Positions 838-18,231 of a stretch of DNA of 64,000 bases are shown here, one piece after another. Under the pieces are notes generated by a model. The model had not been told where the DNA came from and searched no databases. It saw only the letters and a program-made list of their open reading frames with translations. The stretch's first letter is position 1. Each line of letters begins with the position of its first letter. The translations under genes and the position numbers were made by a program. The DNA is from Chloroflexota bacterium (GTDB lineage Bacteria; Chloroflexota; Limnocylindria; Limnocylindrales; CSP1-4): positions 1-64,000 of the forward strand of contig JACPOR010000022.1 of NCBI GenBank assembly GCA_016191425.1. Direction: 5' to 3'.

Positions 838-1278
838 CTACCGGGGTGCGCCGACAGCGAGGAGTTCCTCCGCCTCGTCCCGCCGGATACCGCTGACGAC
901 CTTGATCCTTCGACCCATGGCGGGGTGATCGGCGAGCTGGATCACCCCACCGGCGGCACCCTCGGCCGGATCCGGAGCGGCGAACACAAGCGCCTCAACG
1001 TCGCTGGTGAGCATCGCCCCGACGCACATCGCGCACGGCTCGACAGTCGCGAAGATCGTGACGTCCTGGAGCCTCGCCGTGCCCAGGCGCCGGGCCGCCT
1101 CGCGGAGCGCGACCATCACCGCGTGCGTCGTCGGATCGCTCGTCTCGACGACGCGTTCGTGTCCGCGGGCGACCATCGCCTCGTCCATCACGGCGACCGC
1201 CGCGTGCGGGCGCTCACCCCGGCTGATGGCGGTCCGTGCCTCGGCCAGTGCCTCGCCCATGTACAGCTCATAGTTCAT
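838..1278 (-). CDS. TadA-family deaminase with altered active site
   Basis: This 146-residue protein aligns along its length with bacterial tRNA adenosine deaminase TadA, the enzyme that makes inosine at position 34 of tRNA-Arg(ACG). The zinc ligands are present: His52 in THAV, and Cys82 and Cys85 in EPCAMC. The TadA-like C-terminal half (GAAGG, then HPAMGRR and SGI) is also present. The catalytic Glu of the usual HAE motif is Val54 (codon GTG). The active-site Asn preceding it in the family's G-W-N segment appears to be Glu41 (GHER). A guanine-deaminase-like relative is the main alternative, but that family also needs HAE. The ATG at 1278 puts the conserved domain at the N-terminus. It is divergent from the phosphofructokinase gene, with a 25-bp repeat array between them. 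Family membership is clear; activity is doubtful. Confidence 0.85.
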   Translation of the reverse strand: MNYELYMGEALAEARTAISRGERPHAAVAVMDEAMVARGHERVVETSDPTTHAVMVALREAARRLGTARLQDVTIFATVEPCAMCVGAMLTSDVEALVFAAPDPAEGAAGGVIQLADHPAMGRRIKVVSGIRRDEAEELLAVGAPR

Positions 1279-1365
1279 GGCCCGATGATACGCGGCCGAC
1301 GTCCACGTTCGCGCCGGACGCTCGCGCTCGGCGCCGAACCTTCGCGGCGCCGAAGCGGTCACGCC

Positions 1366-1516
1366 GGTCACGGCCCCGCTCACGGCCGCCGGTCACTGCC
1401 CCGCTCACGGCCGCCGGTCACTGCCCCGCTCACGGCCGCCGGTCACTGCCCCGCTCACGGCCGCCGGTCACTGCCCCGCTCACGGCCGCCGGGTCACGGC
1501 CCCGCTCACGGCCGCC
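1366..1516. repeat. 25-bp tandem repeat, six units, in a divergent promoter region
   Basis: Six consecutive units of GGTCAC(G/T)GCCCCGCTCAC-type sequence, each ending GGCCGCC. Five have a period of 25 bp (1366-1390 through 1466-1490) and the sixth, 1491-1516, carries one extra G. The four middle-to-left units differ only at one base. The array fills most of the space between the divergent tadA-like and phosphofructokinase genes and stops 23 bp before the likely -10 element of the latter. Confidence 0.92.
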
Positions 1517-1539
1517 GCTCACGAATGCTCGCCGCCGGC

Positions 1540-5598: not shown

Positions 5599-5674
5599 TG
5601 GCGCGCCCGGCGGGACTCGAACCCACGACCTTCAGGTCCGCAACCTGACGCTCTATCCGCTGAGCTACGGGCGC
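5599..5674 (-). tRNA. tRNA-Arg(GCG)
   Basis: A full cloverleaf reads on the minus strand: acceptor stem GCGCCCG/CGGGCGC, D arm with A20 (an arginine identity base), anticodon stem TCAGG/CCTGA around loop TTGCGGA, T arm GTGGG-TTCGAGT-CCCGC, discriminator G73 and an encoded CCA. The anticodon is GCG, reading CGC and CGU. The body matches what I recall of the Gram-positive CGN-reading tRNA-Arg, which normally carries A34 (loop CTACGGA) for conversion to inosine; here G34 is in the gene. Confidence 0.93.
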
Positions 5675-5696: not shown

Positions 5697-5786
5697 TGGC
5701 GGAGAGGGGGGGATTCGAACCCCCGATGGGTGTAACCCCATAACGGTTTAGCAAACCGCCGCACTAGGCCTCTATGCGACCTCTCC
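5697..5786 (-). tRNA. tRNA-Ser(GCT)
   Basis: A 90-nt class II tRNA on the minus strand with acceptor stem GGAGAGG/CCTCTCC, a long variable arm, loop TTGCTAA giving anticodon GCU (reads AGC/AGU), discriminator G73 and an encoded CCA. It lies 22 bp upstream of tRNA-Arg(GCG) in the same direction, so the two are probably one transcript. Confidence 0.95.
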
Positions 5787-10670: not shown

Positions 10671-12314
10671 ATGGATGTCGTGCTGATCGGGCTTCCTGGC
10701 AGCGGCAAGAGCGCCGTCGGGCGCCGACTGGCGGCGCGCCACGGCGCGTCGTTCACGGACCTGGACGAGGTCGTCGAGCGGGAGGCGGGCGTCCGGATCC
10801 CGGACATCTTCGCCGAGGAAGGTGAGGCCGGATTTCGAGCCCGTGAGCGCTCCGCGATTGCCGGACTCGGTGCTCCAGATGGGTCGTCCGACATCGCCCG
10901 GGTGATCGCTCCGGGTGGTGGAGCCGTCGTGGATCCTCGGAGTCGCTGGCTCCTCTACCGCGGCCGGGTACCGATCTGGCTGGATGGCCGGCCTGAGGTC
11001 CTGGCCCAGCGACTTCGGCGCAGCCCGACGATCCGTCCCCTTGTCACCGGGCGCGATCCGATCCGCGCGCTCCGCGAACTCGCCGCCGGCCGAGTCCGGT
11101 TCTACGGCGCGGCGACGAGGATCACTGGCATGGCCGAGGTCGGCGGCGTGGTGGACTCCGTGGAACGCGCCGTCCATGAGCATCAACCCGGGGACGGGAC
11201 CGTGCTTCTGCGCGCCGAAACGACGATCGGTCGGGTGATCCTCGGCGAGGGCATTGCCGGTCGCATCGTCGCCGAGCAGCTCCAGCGCCTCGGTGCGAGA
11301 CGGGCGATCGTGATCAGCGAGCCGGGCGCCTGGGAGGCGACCGGATCGGCGCTGGAGGCCGACTTCCGAAGTCACGGCCTGGAGGTGGACCTTGTCACGC
11401 TGCCCCAAGGAGAGGCAGCCAAGACGCTCTCGGTCGTGGAAGTGGCCGCGCGCGAACTGACCCGGCTGCGCGTTGAGCGGGGCGAATCCATCGTGGCCCT
11501 CGGCGGCGGCGCACTCGGCGACACGGCCGGCTTCATCGCGGCCACCTACCTGCTGGGCATGCCGTTCATCCAGGTCCCGACGACCCTCGTCGCCCAGATC
11601 GATTCGTCGATCGGCGGCAAGACCGGGGTCGACCTGCCCGAAGGGAAGAACCTCGTCGGTGCGTTCCACCAGCCGACGGCGGTCGTCATCGACATCGCCC
11701 TGCTCGACAGCCTCCCGGAGCGCGACAGGCGCGCCGCACTCGGGGAGGCGGTCAAGATGGCAGCCCTCGGCGACGATCGCCTGCTGGACGTGCTTGAGAC
11801 GCGTGGCCCCGCGATCGCCAGGGGTGACCCGGCAGCCGTCGCCGATGGGTCGCTGGCCGAACTCGTCGAGCGGTGCAGCTGGGCCAAGGTCGAGGTCGTG
11901 GCGGCTGACGAGCGCGAGTCGGCCGTCCGGGTCGCCTTGAACCTGGGACACTCGCTGGGTCACGCGTTCGAGGCCGCCGGGAGCTATGCGGACCTGCGTC
12001 ACGGCGAGGCCGTCGCGTATGGACTCCGGGCCGCCTGTCGGATCGGTGTTGCCGCGGGGGTCACGCCGCCGGAGCGGGCGGCACGGATCGAGAAGCTCCT
12101 GGACACGCTCGAGCTCGGTCGGGGCCTCCTTCCCTACGGGCTGGAGCCCGTTCTTGCCCACCTCGGTGCGGACAAGAAGCACCAGGCCGGGAGACTCCGC
12201 TGGGTCCTGCCTACCCGCAACGGTCACGTGGTCCGCGACGACGTGCCTGACGACCTCGTCCGTGCCATCGCGGCAGGCCTGCTGACACCGATCCCAGTGG
12301 GCAGAGCCACGTGA
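10671..12314 (+). CDS. aroKB: bifunctional shikimate kinase / 3-dehydroquinate synthase fusion
   Basis: One 547-residue chain joins two enzymes. Residues 1-170 are shikimate kinase with Walker A GLPGSGKS (7-14), the shikimate-binding FTDLD, and PGGGAV. Residues ~178-545 are 3-dehydroquinate synthase with NAD-binding GGGALGDTAGF, PTTLVAQIDSSIGGKTGVD, GEAVK (zinc Glu and catalytic Lys), LNLGHSLGHAFE and HGEAVAYG (zinc His residues). All catalytic positions I can check are intact in both halves. The link is a short stretch with no low-complexity linker. AGGAGCGGCG precedes the ATG. Fusions of these two activities are known in other bacteria, so this is unusual but not unique. Confidence 0.94.
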   Translation: MDVVLIGLPGSGKSAVGRRLAARHGASFTDLDEVVEREAGVRIPDIFAEEGEAGFRARERSAIAGLGAPDGSSDIARVIAPGGGAVVDPRSRWLLYRGRVPIWLDGRPEVLAQRLRRSPTIRPLVTGRDPIRALRELAAGRVRFYGAATRITGMAEVGGVVDSVERAVHEHQPGDGTVLLRAETTIGRVILGEGIAGRIVAEQLQRLGARRAIVISEPGAWEATGSALEADFRSHGLEVDLVTLPQGEAAKTLSVVEVAARELTRLRVERGESIVALGGGALGDTAGFIAATYLLGMPFIQVPTTLVAQIDSSIGGKTGVDLPEGKNLVGAFHQPTAVVIDIALLDSLPERDRRAALGEAVKMAALGDDRLLDVLETRGPAIARGDPAAVADGSLAELVERCSWAKVEVVAADERESAVRVALNLGHSLGHAFEAAGSYADLRHGEAVAYGLRAACRIGVAAGVTPPERAARIEKLLDTLELGRGLLPYGLEPVLAHLGADKKHQAGRLRWVLPTRNGHVVRDDVPDDLVRAIAAGLLTPIPVGRAT

Positions 12315-12751
12315 CCCTCGTCCTCGTCCTCCAGGGCCCGAACCTCAATCTCCTCGGGACGCGTGAGCCCGAGATCTACGGGCGCGAGACGCTGGCCGAG
12401 ATCCACGCCGGAATTCTGCGACACGCCACCGAGCTGCAGCTCGAGGTGGCCTTCTTCCAGTCGAACCACGAGGGCGCGCTCATCGACCGGCTCCATGCGC
12501 GCGACTTCGACATCGCCATCGTCAACGCGGGCGGGCTGACCCACACCTCGGTCGCCCTGCGCGACGCCCTCGTCGGCATCGGGCGACCGTTCATCGAAGT
12601 CCACCTGTCCGATCCGGCCTCGCGAGAACCCTTCCGGCAGGTGAACCTCCTGTCTGACGTGGCGCTGGCGTCGTTCGTCGGCCAGGGCCCACGTGGCTAT
12701 CACCACGCACTGGAACGGATCGCGGCCGAATGGGGAGTGGACCGTGGCTGA
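12311..12751 (+). CDS. aroQ: 3-dehydroquinate dehydratase, type II
   Basis: The 146-residue enzyme dehydrates 3-dehydroquinate to 3-dehydroshikimate. Type II signatures are clear: GPNLNLLGTREPEIYG (catalytic Tyr in the last triplet), QSNHEGALID, and VNAGGLTHTSVALRDAL with the catalytic His; the usual P-G-A-Y is A-G-G-L. The GTG start overlaps the aroKB stop (GTGA). With the preceding genes it completes the shikimate pathway apart from aroE. Confidence 0.95.
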   Translation: MTLVLVLQGPNLNLLGTREPEIYGRETLAEIHAGILRHATELQLEVAFFQSNHEGALIDRLHARDFDIAIVNAGGLTHTSVALRDALVGIGRPFIEVHLSDPASREPFRQVNLLSDVALASFVGQGPRGYHHALERIAAEWGVDRG

Positions 12752-12875
12752 CGGTCCGCCCTGTACCGGCTCCTGTTCAAGGCGACGCGCGCGCTCGAAG
12801 CGGCGGATCGGGCCGGACTGGAGACGGACGACGCCTGAGGTTCAAGCGAGTGCCGGCAGGTTTGACGCGACGCTC

Positions 12876-13754
12876 ATGGACGCCATCGAGCAGTTGCCGA
12901 ACGGGCTTCGGACGCGGTTTGCGCCGGCCCCGACCGGGTTCCTGCACCTTGGTCACGTCGCCAACGCCATCATCGCGTGGGGCGTTGCGCGCGCGACCGG
13001 CGGCCGGGTGGTGCTCCGGATCGAGGACCATGACCGCCAGAGGTGCCGCCCTGAATACGAAACCGCGATCCTCGAGGATCTCGAAGCACTGGGGTTCGTG
13101 CCGGATGAGCCGGTCCTCGCCACGTTCCGGACCGGACGGGCGTCGGGCTACCGCCAGTCGGACAACGATGAACTCTATGCCGGCGCCGTGGCCCGGCTTG
13201 GCGAACTCGGCCTCGTCTATGCCTGCGATTGCAGTCGTGGCACGTTCACCCAGTGGGCGTCGGCACACGGCCGTCCCTGGGCCGGCGGCGGCTGCCCGGG
13301 CGCGTGCGCCGCACGCGGGCTCTCTCGGAGCAGGCGCGGCGTGGCCCTGCGCGTCGCCCTCGGCGATGGCGACGAAGAGTGGACAGACGAGGTCCTCGGC
13401 GGGCAATCCGGCCCGGCGGCAACCACCGGGGACCTCCCCATCCGCGACCGACTCGGCAACTGGACCTATGCCCTCTGCGTGGTCGTTGACGACATGCGTC
13501 ATGGGATCGACCTTGTCGTCCGCGGCGAGGATCTCCTGGCAGCAACCCCGGCCCAGGTTCGTCTCGGCCGGCTGCTCGGGCGCGAGGCGCCGCCGCGGTT
13601 CCTCCACCATCCGCTGATCCGGCGGCCGGACGGTCGAAAGCTCTCAAAGGCCGATTGCGCCAGCGCCGTGCGAGAACTTCTGGCGGAAGGCAAGCGAGCC
13701 GGGGAGGTACGTGGGTTCGCGGCTGGGACGGTCGGTCTGATCACGCTCATTTGA
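12876..13754 (+). CDS. gluQ: glutamyl-Q tRNA(Asp) synthetase-like protein
   Basis: This 292-residue protein is a shortened class I glutamyl-tRNA synthetase without an anticodon-binding domain. Visible are RFAPAPTGFLHLGH (HIGH-type), the zinc-site cysteines CDC followed by CPGAC, and KLSKA as the KMSKS equivalent. Members of this family attach glutamate to queuosine in tRNA-Asp. An in-frame GTG at 12744 overlapping the aroQ stop would add 44 residues; I prefer 12876 because the family domain starts there and the extension is basic low-complexity. Its place at the end of an aro operon is odd and probably reflects simple read-through. Confidence 0.85.
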   Translation: MDAIEQLPNGLRTRFAPAPTGFLHLGHVANAIIAWGVARATGGRVVLRIEDHDRQRCRPEYETAILEDLEALGFVPDEPVLATFRTGRASGYRQSDNDELYAGAVARLGELGLVYACDCSRGTFTQWASAHGRPWAGGGCPGACAARGLSRSRRGVALRVALGDGDEEWTDEVLGGQSGPAATTGDLPIRDRLGNWTYALCVVVDDMRHGIDLVVRGEDLLAATPAQVRLGRLLGREAPPRFLHHPLIRRPDGRKLSKADCASAVRELLAEGKRAGEVRGFAAGTVGLITLI

Positions 13755-14494: not shown

Positions 14495-15346
14495 TCAGCG
14501 TGCGGTGGCAGAGCGCAGGCCGGCGACGAGGCGGGCCATCTTCGCCACATCCCGTCCCTCGGGGCCGAGGGCATTCACCAGCGCCGAAGCGACGATCACG
14601 CCGTCGGCGCCCGCTGCCGCCAGCACCCTGATGTGGGCGGGCGTTGACACCCCGAAGCCGACTGCGACCGGTACCGGTGAGGCGGCGCGAACGTCCATGA
14701 CGAGGCCGCGGACGCTCGACGGGAGCTTTGCTCGGGCACCCGTGACGCCGACGAGGCTCACGCAATAGAGGAAACCGCCGCTGCGCGCGGCGATCATCGT
14801 CCGGCGGGCGGGCGAGGTGGTCGGGGCCACAAGATAGACGACCGCGATCCCCGCGTCGGCAGCGACGGCTTCGAACGGGCCGCCCTCATCGGGCGTCAGG
14901 TCTGCCACGATGACGCCGGAGGCCCCGGCGGCGGCAAGTGCCGCTGCGCGAGTCCGCCCGTCGCCGCCGCCGATGAGCTGGTTCGCGTAGCCCATCGTGA
15001 CGATCGGGACGGTGGGTCGGGCCGCGGCCACGCGGGCCACGAGGGCCAGAGCGCGGTCGAGGCTGGCGCCGGCCAGCAACGCGGCGTGTGACGCGCGCTG
15101 GAGCGTCGCCCCGTCCGCGAGCGGATCGGAGTACGGCAGCCCGATCTCGAGCAGGTCGGCACCGGCGTCGATGGCCGCGCAAGCCGCCGCGAACGACACG
15201 TCGTCGTTCGGGTAGCCCGCGACGACATACGGGATGAGCGCCACTCGCCGGCCGTGATCGGCGGCTTCGAAGGCCGCCTTGATGCGCCGCGCGCCGGCGG
15301 TGTCGTTCGTGTCCGAACGCACGGTCATGGCCGGAACGCTCCTCAT
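14495..15346 (-). CDS. trpA: tryptophan synthase alpha chain
   Basis: A 283-residue TIM-barrel subunit that cleaves indole-3-glycerol phosphate. The catalytic Glu and Asp are in LLEIGLPYSDPLADG. The C-terminal phosphate site reads GFGVSTPAHI, followed by GADGVIVASALV. The ATG overlaps the trpB-domain stop (ATGA), so alpha is coupled to the beta domain of the fused protein upstream. An ATG 18 bp downstream is an alternative start. Confidence 0.95.
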   Translation of the reverse strand: MRSVPAMTVRSDTNDTAGARRIKAAFEAADHGRRVALIPYVVAGYPNDDVSFAAACAAIDAGADLLEIGLPYSDPLADGATLQRASHAALLAGASLDRALALVARVAAARPTVPIVTMGYANQLIGGGDGRTRAAALAAAGASGVIVADLTPDEGGPFEAVAADAGIAVVYLVAPTTSPARRTMIAARSGGFLYCVSLVGVTGARAKLPSSVRGLVMDVRAASPVPVAVGFGVSTPAHIRVLAAAGADGVIVASALVNALGPEGRDVAKMARLVAGLRSATAR

Positions 15347-18231
15347 CCGAGGCCCGTCCAGGCATCGACGTCGGCGAAGCGCTCGAGAGCGGCCAGGTCC
15401 TTGTCGCCGCGTCCGGAGAACCCGAGCAGGACGACGGCGCCTTCCGGCAGCGGGCCGGAGCCCTCCAGCCCGGCGAGGATCTTGGGCAGGGCCGCCACGG
15501 CATGCGCCGTCTCGAGGGCGGGAAGGATTCCCTCGGTCCGCGTGACCGTGCGCAAGGCTGCGATCGCCTCCCGGTCCGTTGCCGTCGCCACCTCGAGGCG
15601 ACCGGCCTCCGCGAGCGCGGCGAGTTGCGGTCCGACACCGGGGTAATCGAGGCCTGCCGACGCTGAGTGCGCCTCGACGACCTGGCCGTCCTGGTCCTGG
15701 AGCATGAGCGACCGGGAGCCATGGAGGATGCCCGGCGTGCCGCCGGCGATCGCTGCGGCGTGCCGACCGGTGGCCACGCCATCGCCGGCGGCCTCGGCGA
15801 CCGCCAGCCGGACGGACGGCTCGCCGATGAAGCGAGCCAGGAGCCCGATGGCGTTCGATCCTCCGCCGACGCAGGCGAGGGCCATGTCCGGCAGGCGCCC
15901 CTCAATGTCGGCGATCTGGCGAGCCGCCTCGTCCCCGATCCGCCGCTGGAAGTCTCGAACGATCGTGGGGTACGGGTGTGGCCCCATCGCCGAGCCCAGG
16001 ACGTAGTGCGTCGTCTCGACGTTCGTGACCCAGTCGCGCATGGCCTCGTTGACCGCATCCTTGAGCGTCGCCGTCCCCGACGTGACACTCCGGACCTCGG
16101 CACCGAGGGCACGCATCCGCAGCACGTTAGGCGCCTGACGCCGGATATCCTCCTCGCCCATGAACACAACGCACGGCAGACCGAGCAGCGCGCAGGCCGT
16201 CGCGGTCGCGACGCCGTGCTGGCCGGCACCGGTCTCGGCGATGACACGGGCCTTGCCGAGCCGCCGCGTCAGGAGGGCCTGGCCGAGGGCGTTGTTGATC
16301 TTGTGCGCGCCGGTGTGTGCGAGGTCCTCGCGCTTCAGGTAGAGCCGCACCGCCGGCGGGTCCACTCGCTGCCCGCGGCGGGGCACCGCGTTCGCGAGGA
16401 GCCGGCGGGCCTCCAACCGGACGGCTTCGGAAAGCCGATCCGACCGGTAGAGCGCGGTGGGCCGGCCCGCGAACTGCTCCAGCAGCTCGTTGAGTTCCGC
16501 CCAGAACCGCGGGTCGTGACGGATCGCGTCATAGGCCGCCTCGAGCTGTCCGAGCGCTCCCATGAGCGTTTCCGGCACGTAGCGCCCACCGAAGTCGCGC
16601 TCCATGCCCCAGCGGCCATGGGCGTCGACCTCGAGGAGTCCCGGGTGAACCGGCGTGGGACGAATGGTCAGGTTCGGGCGATCGATCCGGGCGCTTCGAG
16701 CGCGTTTCATGAAGAGCGCAACCTTCAACGGATCCTTGACCGGGCGCCTGCCTGGCATTCTCGGTGCCTCGACGCCGGACGTGACGTCGACGCCGACGAC
16801 CGGGGAGGTGCGGAGGGCCTGGCCAACCGTGGCCGGCCCGAGGCCGCCGGCGAGGATCACCCGGATCTCCCGTGCGACGGCCGCCACCAGGTCGGCATCG
16901 ACGCGGATCCCGGTGCCGCCGGGATGCGGTCCGCCGGCCGTGTCGACCACGATTCGCGCGGCCCCCGCCGAGAGGTGGGCGCGGGCGGCGGCGATGACCT
17001 CGGTCGCGAGCGCGGCGTGATCCGAGGCGCCGTCCGAGGCCGGCAGATGGAGGACCTTCCAGACCGGCCGGCGAACGTCGCCGGCAAGGCCGGCCGGTTC
17101 GTGTCCGCTCAGCTGAATCGCGTCGGCGTCGAGGGCCTCCCCGATCCTATTCAGGTCATCGACAGGCAGGTCGACCGTGATCGGCACGATCGCCGGGCGG
17201 CTGCCGGCCGGGGTGATGGCCCGGAGGTGCGCCGCCAGCGCCATCGCCTCGCGGAGTTCGAGGGCCCGAGGCGTTCCCGGAACCAGGTTGAGGCCGACGG
17301 CATCGGCGCCCGCTCGGACCGCCGCATCAATGCCGGCCGCGTCGGTCACGCCGCAGATCTTCACGAACGGCACGCGATCCCGGTTCGCGGGGTCGGTCGG
17401 GGGTCTGCCGGCGGCCACGAAGGCGCGTACCGCGGCTTCGGGATCTCCTGAGCGGACGAGGGCCTCGCCCACCAGGGCGCCATCGAACCCCAGCGCCCGC
17501 CAGGCGCGGACCGTCGCGGGCTTCTGGACCCCCGACTCGGCGATGGCGAGTCGGTCCTCCGGAACGAGGGCCCGCATCCAGGCGGCCCGTTCCGGATCCA
17601 CTGTCAGCGTCCGGAGGTCCCGGTTGTTGATGCCGATCAGGCGCGCCGAGGTGGCAAGGGACGCGTCGAGCTCCCGCTCATCATGCGCCTCGACGAGAGG
17701 CTCCATGCCCAGCGCAAGGGCCCGATCCACGAGCCGCCCCAGGCGCGGCCCAGGGTGCAGGACGGCGAGCAGGAGCACCAGATCCGCACCGGCGGCACGG
17801 AGCAGGTCGAGATGGCGGGATTCGACGACGAAGTCCTTGGCGAGGACCGGCACCGAGACGGCCGCGCGGACAGCCGACAGGTCGGCCACGGATCCGGCGA
17901 ACCAGTGCGGCTCACAAAGGACCGAGATGGCAGCGGCACCGCCACGCTGGTAGGCGTGCGCCCGGGCAAGGACGTCCTCGTCGACGGCGGCGATGGCACC
18001 CGCCGACGGAGAGGCGCGTTTGATCTCGGCGATGAGATGCAGGCCAGGGCCGGCCAGGCGCTCGGCCACCGGTCGTGGGTCCGACGCCGCCCGGACGCGC
18101 CGGCGCAGCTCGGAGCGATCCAGGCTGGCCAAGGCTGCCCGAACGTCCTCGCGGCGCCGCGCCGCGATGTCCGTCACCACCCCTGCGCGCACCAGGCGGC
18201 GCGGAACAGGCGTGGAACGGCCATTGCTCAT
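15343..18231 (-). CDS. trpCFB: TrpC-TrpF-TrpB triple fusion
   Basis: A single 962-residue frame holds three consecutive tryptophan enzymes. Residues 1-272 are indole-3-glycerol phosphate synthase (IAEIKRASPSAG, LAKDFVV, INNRDL, AESGV). Residues ~286-510 are phosphoribosylanthranilate isomerase, with catalytic Cys293 in VKICGVT and Asp430 in VVDTAGG, then GGTG. Residues ~535-962 are tryptophan synthase beta, with GGRYVPETL, PLP Lys644 in HTGAHKINN, AETGAGQHG and GGGSNAIG. All three active sites look complete and no stop or shift interrupts the frame. TrpC-TrpF fusions are well known; having TrpB on the same chain is unusual. Direct coupling to trpA follows by ATGA overlap. The order of activities matches the last steps of the pathway. 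Confidence 0.95.
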   Translation of the reverse strand: MSNGRSTPVPRRLVRAGVVTDIAARRREDVRAALASLDRSELRRRVRAASDPRPVAERLAGPGLHLIAEIKRASPSAGAIAAVDEDVLARAHAYQRGGAAAISVLCEPHWFAGSVADLSAVRAAVSVPVLAKDFVVESRHLDLLRAAGADLVLLLAVLHPGPRLGRLVDRALALGMEPLVEAHDERELDASLATSARLIGINNRDLRTLTVDPERAAWMRALVPEDRLAIAESGVQKPATVRAWRALGFDGALVGEALVRSGDPEAAVRAFVAAGRPPTDPANRDRVPFVKICGVTDAAGIDAAVRAGADAVGLNLVPGTPRALELREAMALAAHLRAITPAGSRPAIVPITVDLPVDDLNRIGEALDADAIQLSGHEPAGLAGDVRRPVWKVLHLPASDGASDHAALATEVIAAARAHLSAGAARIVVDTAGGPHPGGTGIRVDADLVAAVAREIRVILAGGLGPATVGQALRTSPVVGVDVTSGVEAPRMPGRRPVKDPLKVALFMKRARSARIDRPNLTIRPTPVHPGLLEVDAHGRWGMERDFGGRYVPETLMGALGQLEAAYDAIRHDPRFWAELNELLEQFAGRPTALYRSDRLSEAVRLEARRLLANAVPRRGQRVDPPAVRLYLKREDLAHTGAHKINNALGQALLTRRLGKARVIAETGAGQHGVATATACALLGLPCVVFMGEEDIRRQAPNVLRMRALGAEVRSVTSGTATLKDAVNEAMRDWVTNVETTHYVLGSAMGPHPYPTIVRDFQRRIGDEAARQIADIEGRLPDMALACVGGGSNAIGLLARFIGEPSVRLAVAEAAGDGVATGRHAAAIAGGTPGILHGSRSLMLQDQDGQVVEAHSASAGLDYPGVGPQLAALAEAGRLEVATATDREAIAALRTVTRTEGILPALETAHAVAALPKILAGLEGSGPLPEGAVVLLGFSGRGDKDLAALERFADVDAWTGLG

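Follow-up and report, generated by a model that had tools for sequence, protein, structure and literature searches.

The usual textbook account of bacterial arginine decoding places an inosine at position 34 of tRNA-Arg, which then reads CGU, CGC and CGA. The DNA analysed here (the window: 64,000 nucleotides, contig 42 of a Chloroflexota genome of the CSP1-4 lineage) encodes a tRNA-Arg in which position 34 is a G, and 4.3 kb away an open reading frame for a TadA-like protein with HAV in place of the HAE motif (Table 1). How are the CGN codons read in this organism, and why is an apparently dead TadA still encoded? Relatives are referred to below by family: f1 is presumed to be the CSP1-4 family, and f1 and f2 are two families of one order.

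Table 1. Features of the window, with positions, strands and the basis of each assignment.
Feature	Position	Strand	Basis
tRNA-Arg(GCG), encoded CCA included	5599-5674	-	ARAGORN; RF00005, 69.9 bits; near-identical stretch in relatives
Anticodon of tRNA-Arg(GCG)	5639-5641	-	complement of "cgc"
tRNA-Ser(GCU)	5697-5786	-	ARAGORN; pair with tRNA-Arg(GCG) seen in many relatives
Pseudo-TadA, 146-aa TadA fold, catalytic Glu to Val	841-1278	-	NF008113 match, alignment, tree, dN/dS, fold
Val codon of pseudo-TadA (codon 54)	1117-1119	-	replaces catalytic Glu
Tandem repeats (27-base and 25-base units)	614-727 and 1362-1522		flank pseudo-TadA
547-aa ORF	10671-12314	+	read by eye
ORF	12693-13754	+	read by eye
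962-aa ORF	15343-18231	-	read by eye

The tRNA-Arg(GCG) gene and the arginine tRNA set

The sequence-only reading of the window had noted G34 in this tRNA, together with G37-A38, and both observations are confirmed: ARAGORN calls the anticodon as gcg, the score against Rfam RF00005 exceeds the cut-off, and the anticodon loop reads U32-U33-G34-C35-G36-G37-A38 (UUGCGGA). A stretch of 30 bases from the anticodon to the T-loop is almost unchanged in dozens of family members, a recurrence that excludes a sequencing error or a chance match and makes an assembly or strain artefact as the source of GCG highly improbable. This is a sound tRNA-Arg(GCG), and tRNA-Ser(GCU) is its usual near neighbour in families f1 and f4.

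The window genome comprises 2.38 Mb in 56 contigs (92% complete, 69% GC), with 38 tRNAs exceeding the cut-off, among which ARAGORN finds the arginine anticodons GCG, CCG, UCU and CCU. A genome-wide check by tRNA calls and pattern searches found no tRNA-Arg(ACG) in this 92% complete assembly. The sequence-only reading had also expected a separate tRNA-Arg(UCG) for CGA; relatives carry one (the congeners G003 and G010 and many f1 genomes), but none was found in the window assembly, where a third pattern match does not resemble a tRNA. The tRNAs Asp, Ser-GGA, Ser-CGA and Ile-GAU are missing from the assembly as well. In relatives tRNA-Ser(CGA) and tRNA-Ser(GGA) usually accompany the pseudo-TadA gene, which here sits 840 bases short of the contig end, and their being missing along with UCG is consistent with assembly gaps. 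The absence of UCG is presumably such a gap, which the other missing tRNAs fit without proving it, and the strain itself probably carries the gene.

Codon use in the window genome was counted over 39,031 codons from ORFs picked by a simple GC-position rule. CGA accounts for 14.5% of CGN codons, against 8-11% in two f3 genomes that carry ACG, so that the CGA frequency, proposed earlier as a check, gives no avoidance signature of non-inosine decoding. Since CGA is not avoided, a UCG tRNA is needed.

The TadA homolog and its active site

The loss of the TadA active site claimed in the sequence-only reading was borne out by alignment. In the window protein Val replaces the catalytic Glu, Glu stands at the position of the Asn that holds the wobble base (Asn46 of TadA; PMC8216470), and the C-terminal tRNA-binding helix is lost, the protein ending LLAVGAPR; the zinc ligands H52, C82 and C85 are kept. 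Its NF008113 score of 121.2 bits falls under the curated cut-off of 150 bits, a shortfall that is weak on its own because most HAE-TadAs of family f3 also score under 150 bits. The predicted fold has a mean pLDDT of 95, and its top PDB matches are TadA (TM about 0.95); the protein is single-domain and has no N-terminal ferredoxin-like domain. It is the sole TadA-like match in the window genome, in which neither a second TadA-like protein nor a canonical TadA was found; the combination of an ACG tRNA and a canonical TadA elsewhere in the genome, which would count against the earlier reading, was looked for and neither element was found.

At the catalytic position (E. coli 59) the 58 f1 proteins carry V in 53 cases, I in four and T in one, and V is found in 17/17 proteins of family f4 and in the four of the Omnitrophota type, against E in 17/17 f3 proteins and 41/41 from other Chloroflexota; the Glu is lost in all 75 of the f1 and f4 proteins. 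The wobble-base Asn (E. coli 46) is lost in 70 of these 75, being kept in 5/58 f1 proteins and none of f4; it is found in none of the Omnitrophota type, and all canonical TadAs keep it bar one gap. Almost every HAV protein lacks the C-terminal helix residues F148, F149 and R153 (E. coli numbering). No aligned protein has lost H57, C87 or C90. At position 91 the canonical proteins of f3 and other Chloroflexota have Ala, and most HAV proteins Val.

Purifying selection acts on the gene: the median dN/dS is 0.23 in the window's genus, and the Val codon varies (GTG, GTC, GTT) around a constant Val. Judged by the residues lost, deaminase activity has probably gone. The retention of this apparently dead TadA is the unusual part of the f1/f4 lineage. 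Proteins of family f46 (L343-L345) were considered as a second pseudo-TadA and set aside; they score about 105 bits but keep HAE. Tandem repeats lie on both sides of the window gene (Table 1).

Distribution among relatives and beyond the phylum

Pattern searches found GCG, CCG and UCG tRNAs in f1 genomes, and the same three are present in family f2, whose genomes are about 1.1 Mb. Among 84 genomes of f1 and 16 of f2, none showed an ACG-type tRNA; one sequence in G128 matched the pattern but is not a tRNA. TadA gave no match in f2. In family f4, GCG occurs together with HAV-TadA, and the co-occurrence of the two that had been proposed as a check in relatives is seen in f1 and f4; ACG patterns match in a few f4 genomes, of which ARAGORN accepts one (G096, L114), in an assembly that is 6% contaminated. 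Family f3 mostly has ACG and UCG tRNAs with HAE-TadA. In two genomes of the family, G056 and G109, GCG and UCG occur with TadA matches of paralogue level only; they are a within-family replicate of the association between GCG and TadA loss. The overall pattern pairs GCG with a TadA that is missing or non-canonical, and ACG with HAE-TadA.

Across the phylum, the tRNA-Arg(GCG) pattern is present in 312 of 400 Chloroflexota genomes, and an ACG-pattern match in 51 of 400, many of these by chance. Outside the class, with related genomes counted as independent, 266 genomes have GCG without TadA, 40 have TadA without GCG, 34 have neither and five have both; in most GCG-carrying Chloroflexota the tadA gene is simply absent. 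GCG is the usual state of Chloroflexota, and CGN decoding without inosine is ordinary for the phylum. Because it is the commonest state, GCG is not special to the CSP1-4 lineage, and we reject it as a lineage-specific trait. The earlier proposal that inosine was abandoned through a change of the tRNA gene thus stands as far as decoding without inosine is concerned, which is well supported, and falls where it made this peculiar to the lineage. A search with partial coverage of the literature found no paper on GCG decoding in Chloroflexota. One of the five genomes with both TadA and GCG, an HAE-TadA genome, shows ACG and GCG tRNA-Arg patterns side by side (G335:C134:12709-12816), and is a possible intermediate between the two states.

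When 84,980 species genomes were scanned for DPTAHA[V/I/M]...EPCxMC, 104 stretches matched, and nearly all of the 80 of these that were listed are from Chloroflexi. The TadA-bearing exceptions among the matches listed are three Omnitrophota MAGs (L219, L224, L260) and a Planctomycetales-labelled MAG (L209); all four have HAV-TadA with tRNA-Arg(GCG) closely upstream and tRNA-Ser(GCU) downstream, UCG and CCG patterns are present, and no ACG pattern was found in them. A subsample tree joined the HAV proteins of Limnocylindria and Omnitrophota with support 95/95; in a tree without the trait columns they were not joined, and a single clade was not rejected (p-AU 0.42). The Omnitrophota proteins represent either a second origin or a gene transfer. 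The tRNA sequences are too different to show a recent transfer of the whole tRNA-Arg-tadA cluster. Two further candidates were discarded: L255 (Porphyromonadaceae label) matches the motif but has no tRNA-Arg in its vicinity and looks like a guanine-deaminase relative, and the tRNA-Arg(gcg) called by ARAGORN in L381 is a 97-base false match.

Probable reading of CGN without inosine, and the fate of TadA

The explanation that we consider very probable combines a working tRNA-Arg(GCG), with CGN decoded without inosine, and a TadA retained in f1 and f4 as a pseudoenzyme that has no essential substrate. G34 would read CGC by Watson-Crick pairing and CGU by wobble, making A34-to-inosine editing unneeded, and the mature tRNA would carry no inosine at position 34; CGG would be read by tRNA-Arg(CCG), and CGA by the tRNA-Arg(UCG) that is known in congeners and presumably falls in an assembly gap here. 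TadA would have no essential substrate because no A34 tRNA-Arg exists. In most Chloroflexota the gene has disappeared; in f1 and f4 it persists as a pseudoenzyme that keeps its zinc site without the proton-shuttling Glu, usually without the wobble-base Asn, and without the C-terminal RNA-binding helix, probably in a new function.

An unlikely alternative is that the HAV gene is a decaying relic without function, on its way out. Decay would fit the loss of the catalytic Glu, of K110 and N127, of the C-terminal helix and, in most proteins, of the wobble-base Asn, as well as the lack of a TadA match in f2 of the same order and the loss of the gene in most of the phylum. Against this, the frame is open across f1 and f4 (about 30 genera), the H, EPC..C, D and G residues are invariant, dN/dS is about 0.23, and one specific replacement, Val, is nearly fixed through synonymous codon turnover. 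A little less likely again is an active deaminase acting on another substrate with its general acid/base relocated: the zinc ligands and fold are kept, but the Glu is the proton shuttle of the deaminase family, putting Glu where yeast Tad3p has Val failed to restore a Tad2p catalytic mutant (PMC8216470), and the base-holding Asn is mostly lost too.

We give still less weight to a role like that of ADAT3, as partner to an active deaminase subunit. In eukaryotic ADAT3/Tad3p the catalytic Glu is replaced by Val and the last helix is shorter (PMC8216470), and the likeness extends to the lost anticodon-loop pockets and the kept zinc site; ADAT3, however, carries an additional N-terminal domain and works as the partner of active ADAT2, whereas the window genome encodes no second TadA-like protein as such a partner, other deaminases are sporadic in relatives, and there is no A34 tRNA-Arg as an editing target. 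It is highly improbable that the GCG tRNA is peculiar to this assembly or strain and that an ACG tRNA lies hidden in the missing 8% of a 92% complete genome, given that none was found in 84 f1 genomes.

Decoding by tRNA-Arg(GCG) with a retained pseudoenzyme has partial parallels. In Mollicutes that have lost TadA (the M. pneumoniae group and M. pulmonis), GCG replaces ACG and UCG is added (Yokobori et al. 2013, PMC3711424), and in these, as here, TadA activity is not expected; there, however, tadA is lost outright, CCG is lost too and the genomes are those of reduced parasites, whereas the present genome has 69% GC and retains both CCG and an HAV-TadA. GCG instead of ACG is also described in Spirochaetes and Thermotogae (PMC8007984) and, together with UCG and CCG, in CPR bacteria (PMC8629427); the portions of these two sources available to us mention no retained pseudo-TadA.

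A second editing enzyme shows a related pattern. TilS (TIGR02432) gave no match exceeding the cut-off in 12 of 12 genomes tested from f1 (eight) and f2 (four), and exceeded it in f3 (6/6), f4 (6/6) and f5 (1/1). A tRNA-Ile(UAU) is encoded in the window genome (G000 C53:73383-73456; L018, L377), where AUA makes up 1.7% of Ile codons in the same 39,031 codons, and another in the f2 genome G037 (L438). The combination of tRNA-Ile(UAU) with absence of TilS is described for Mycoplasma mobile (Taniguchi 2013, as cited in PMC4013482); here it involves two families of one Chloroflexota order, with GC-rich genomes.

On a broader reading we are evenly divided. It holds that, once inosine was dispensable, TadA took on a new function and was kept as a conserved zinc pseudoenzyme carrying an ADAT3-type Glu-to-Val replacement, in Limnocylindria and (separately or by transfer) in Omnitrophota beside tRNA-Arg(GCG); and that, because the order of f1 and f2 also dropped TilS by way of tRNA-Ile(UAU), both anticodon base-changing enzymes were there replaced by a change of tRNA gene. 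The greater part of a phylum seems to do without tRNA-Arg inosine, and one branch to keep an enzyme whose job is gone; HAE with ACG, HAV with GCG, and GCG without TadA make a natural series for studying how an organism comes to dispense with a tRNA-editing enzyme, and what such an enzyme can still do once dead. Together with the loss of TilS in the same order, this would be a clear case, outside parasites, of tRNA gene change replacing tRNA editing.

Three other open reading frames of the window were read by eye (Table 1): the 547-aa ORF as a fusion of shikimate kinase and dehydroquinate synthase within a gene cluster for aromatic amino acids, the 962-aa ORF as a TrpC-TrpF-TrpB fusion, and the remaining one as a glutamyl-queuosine tRNA(Asp) synthetase-like protein.
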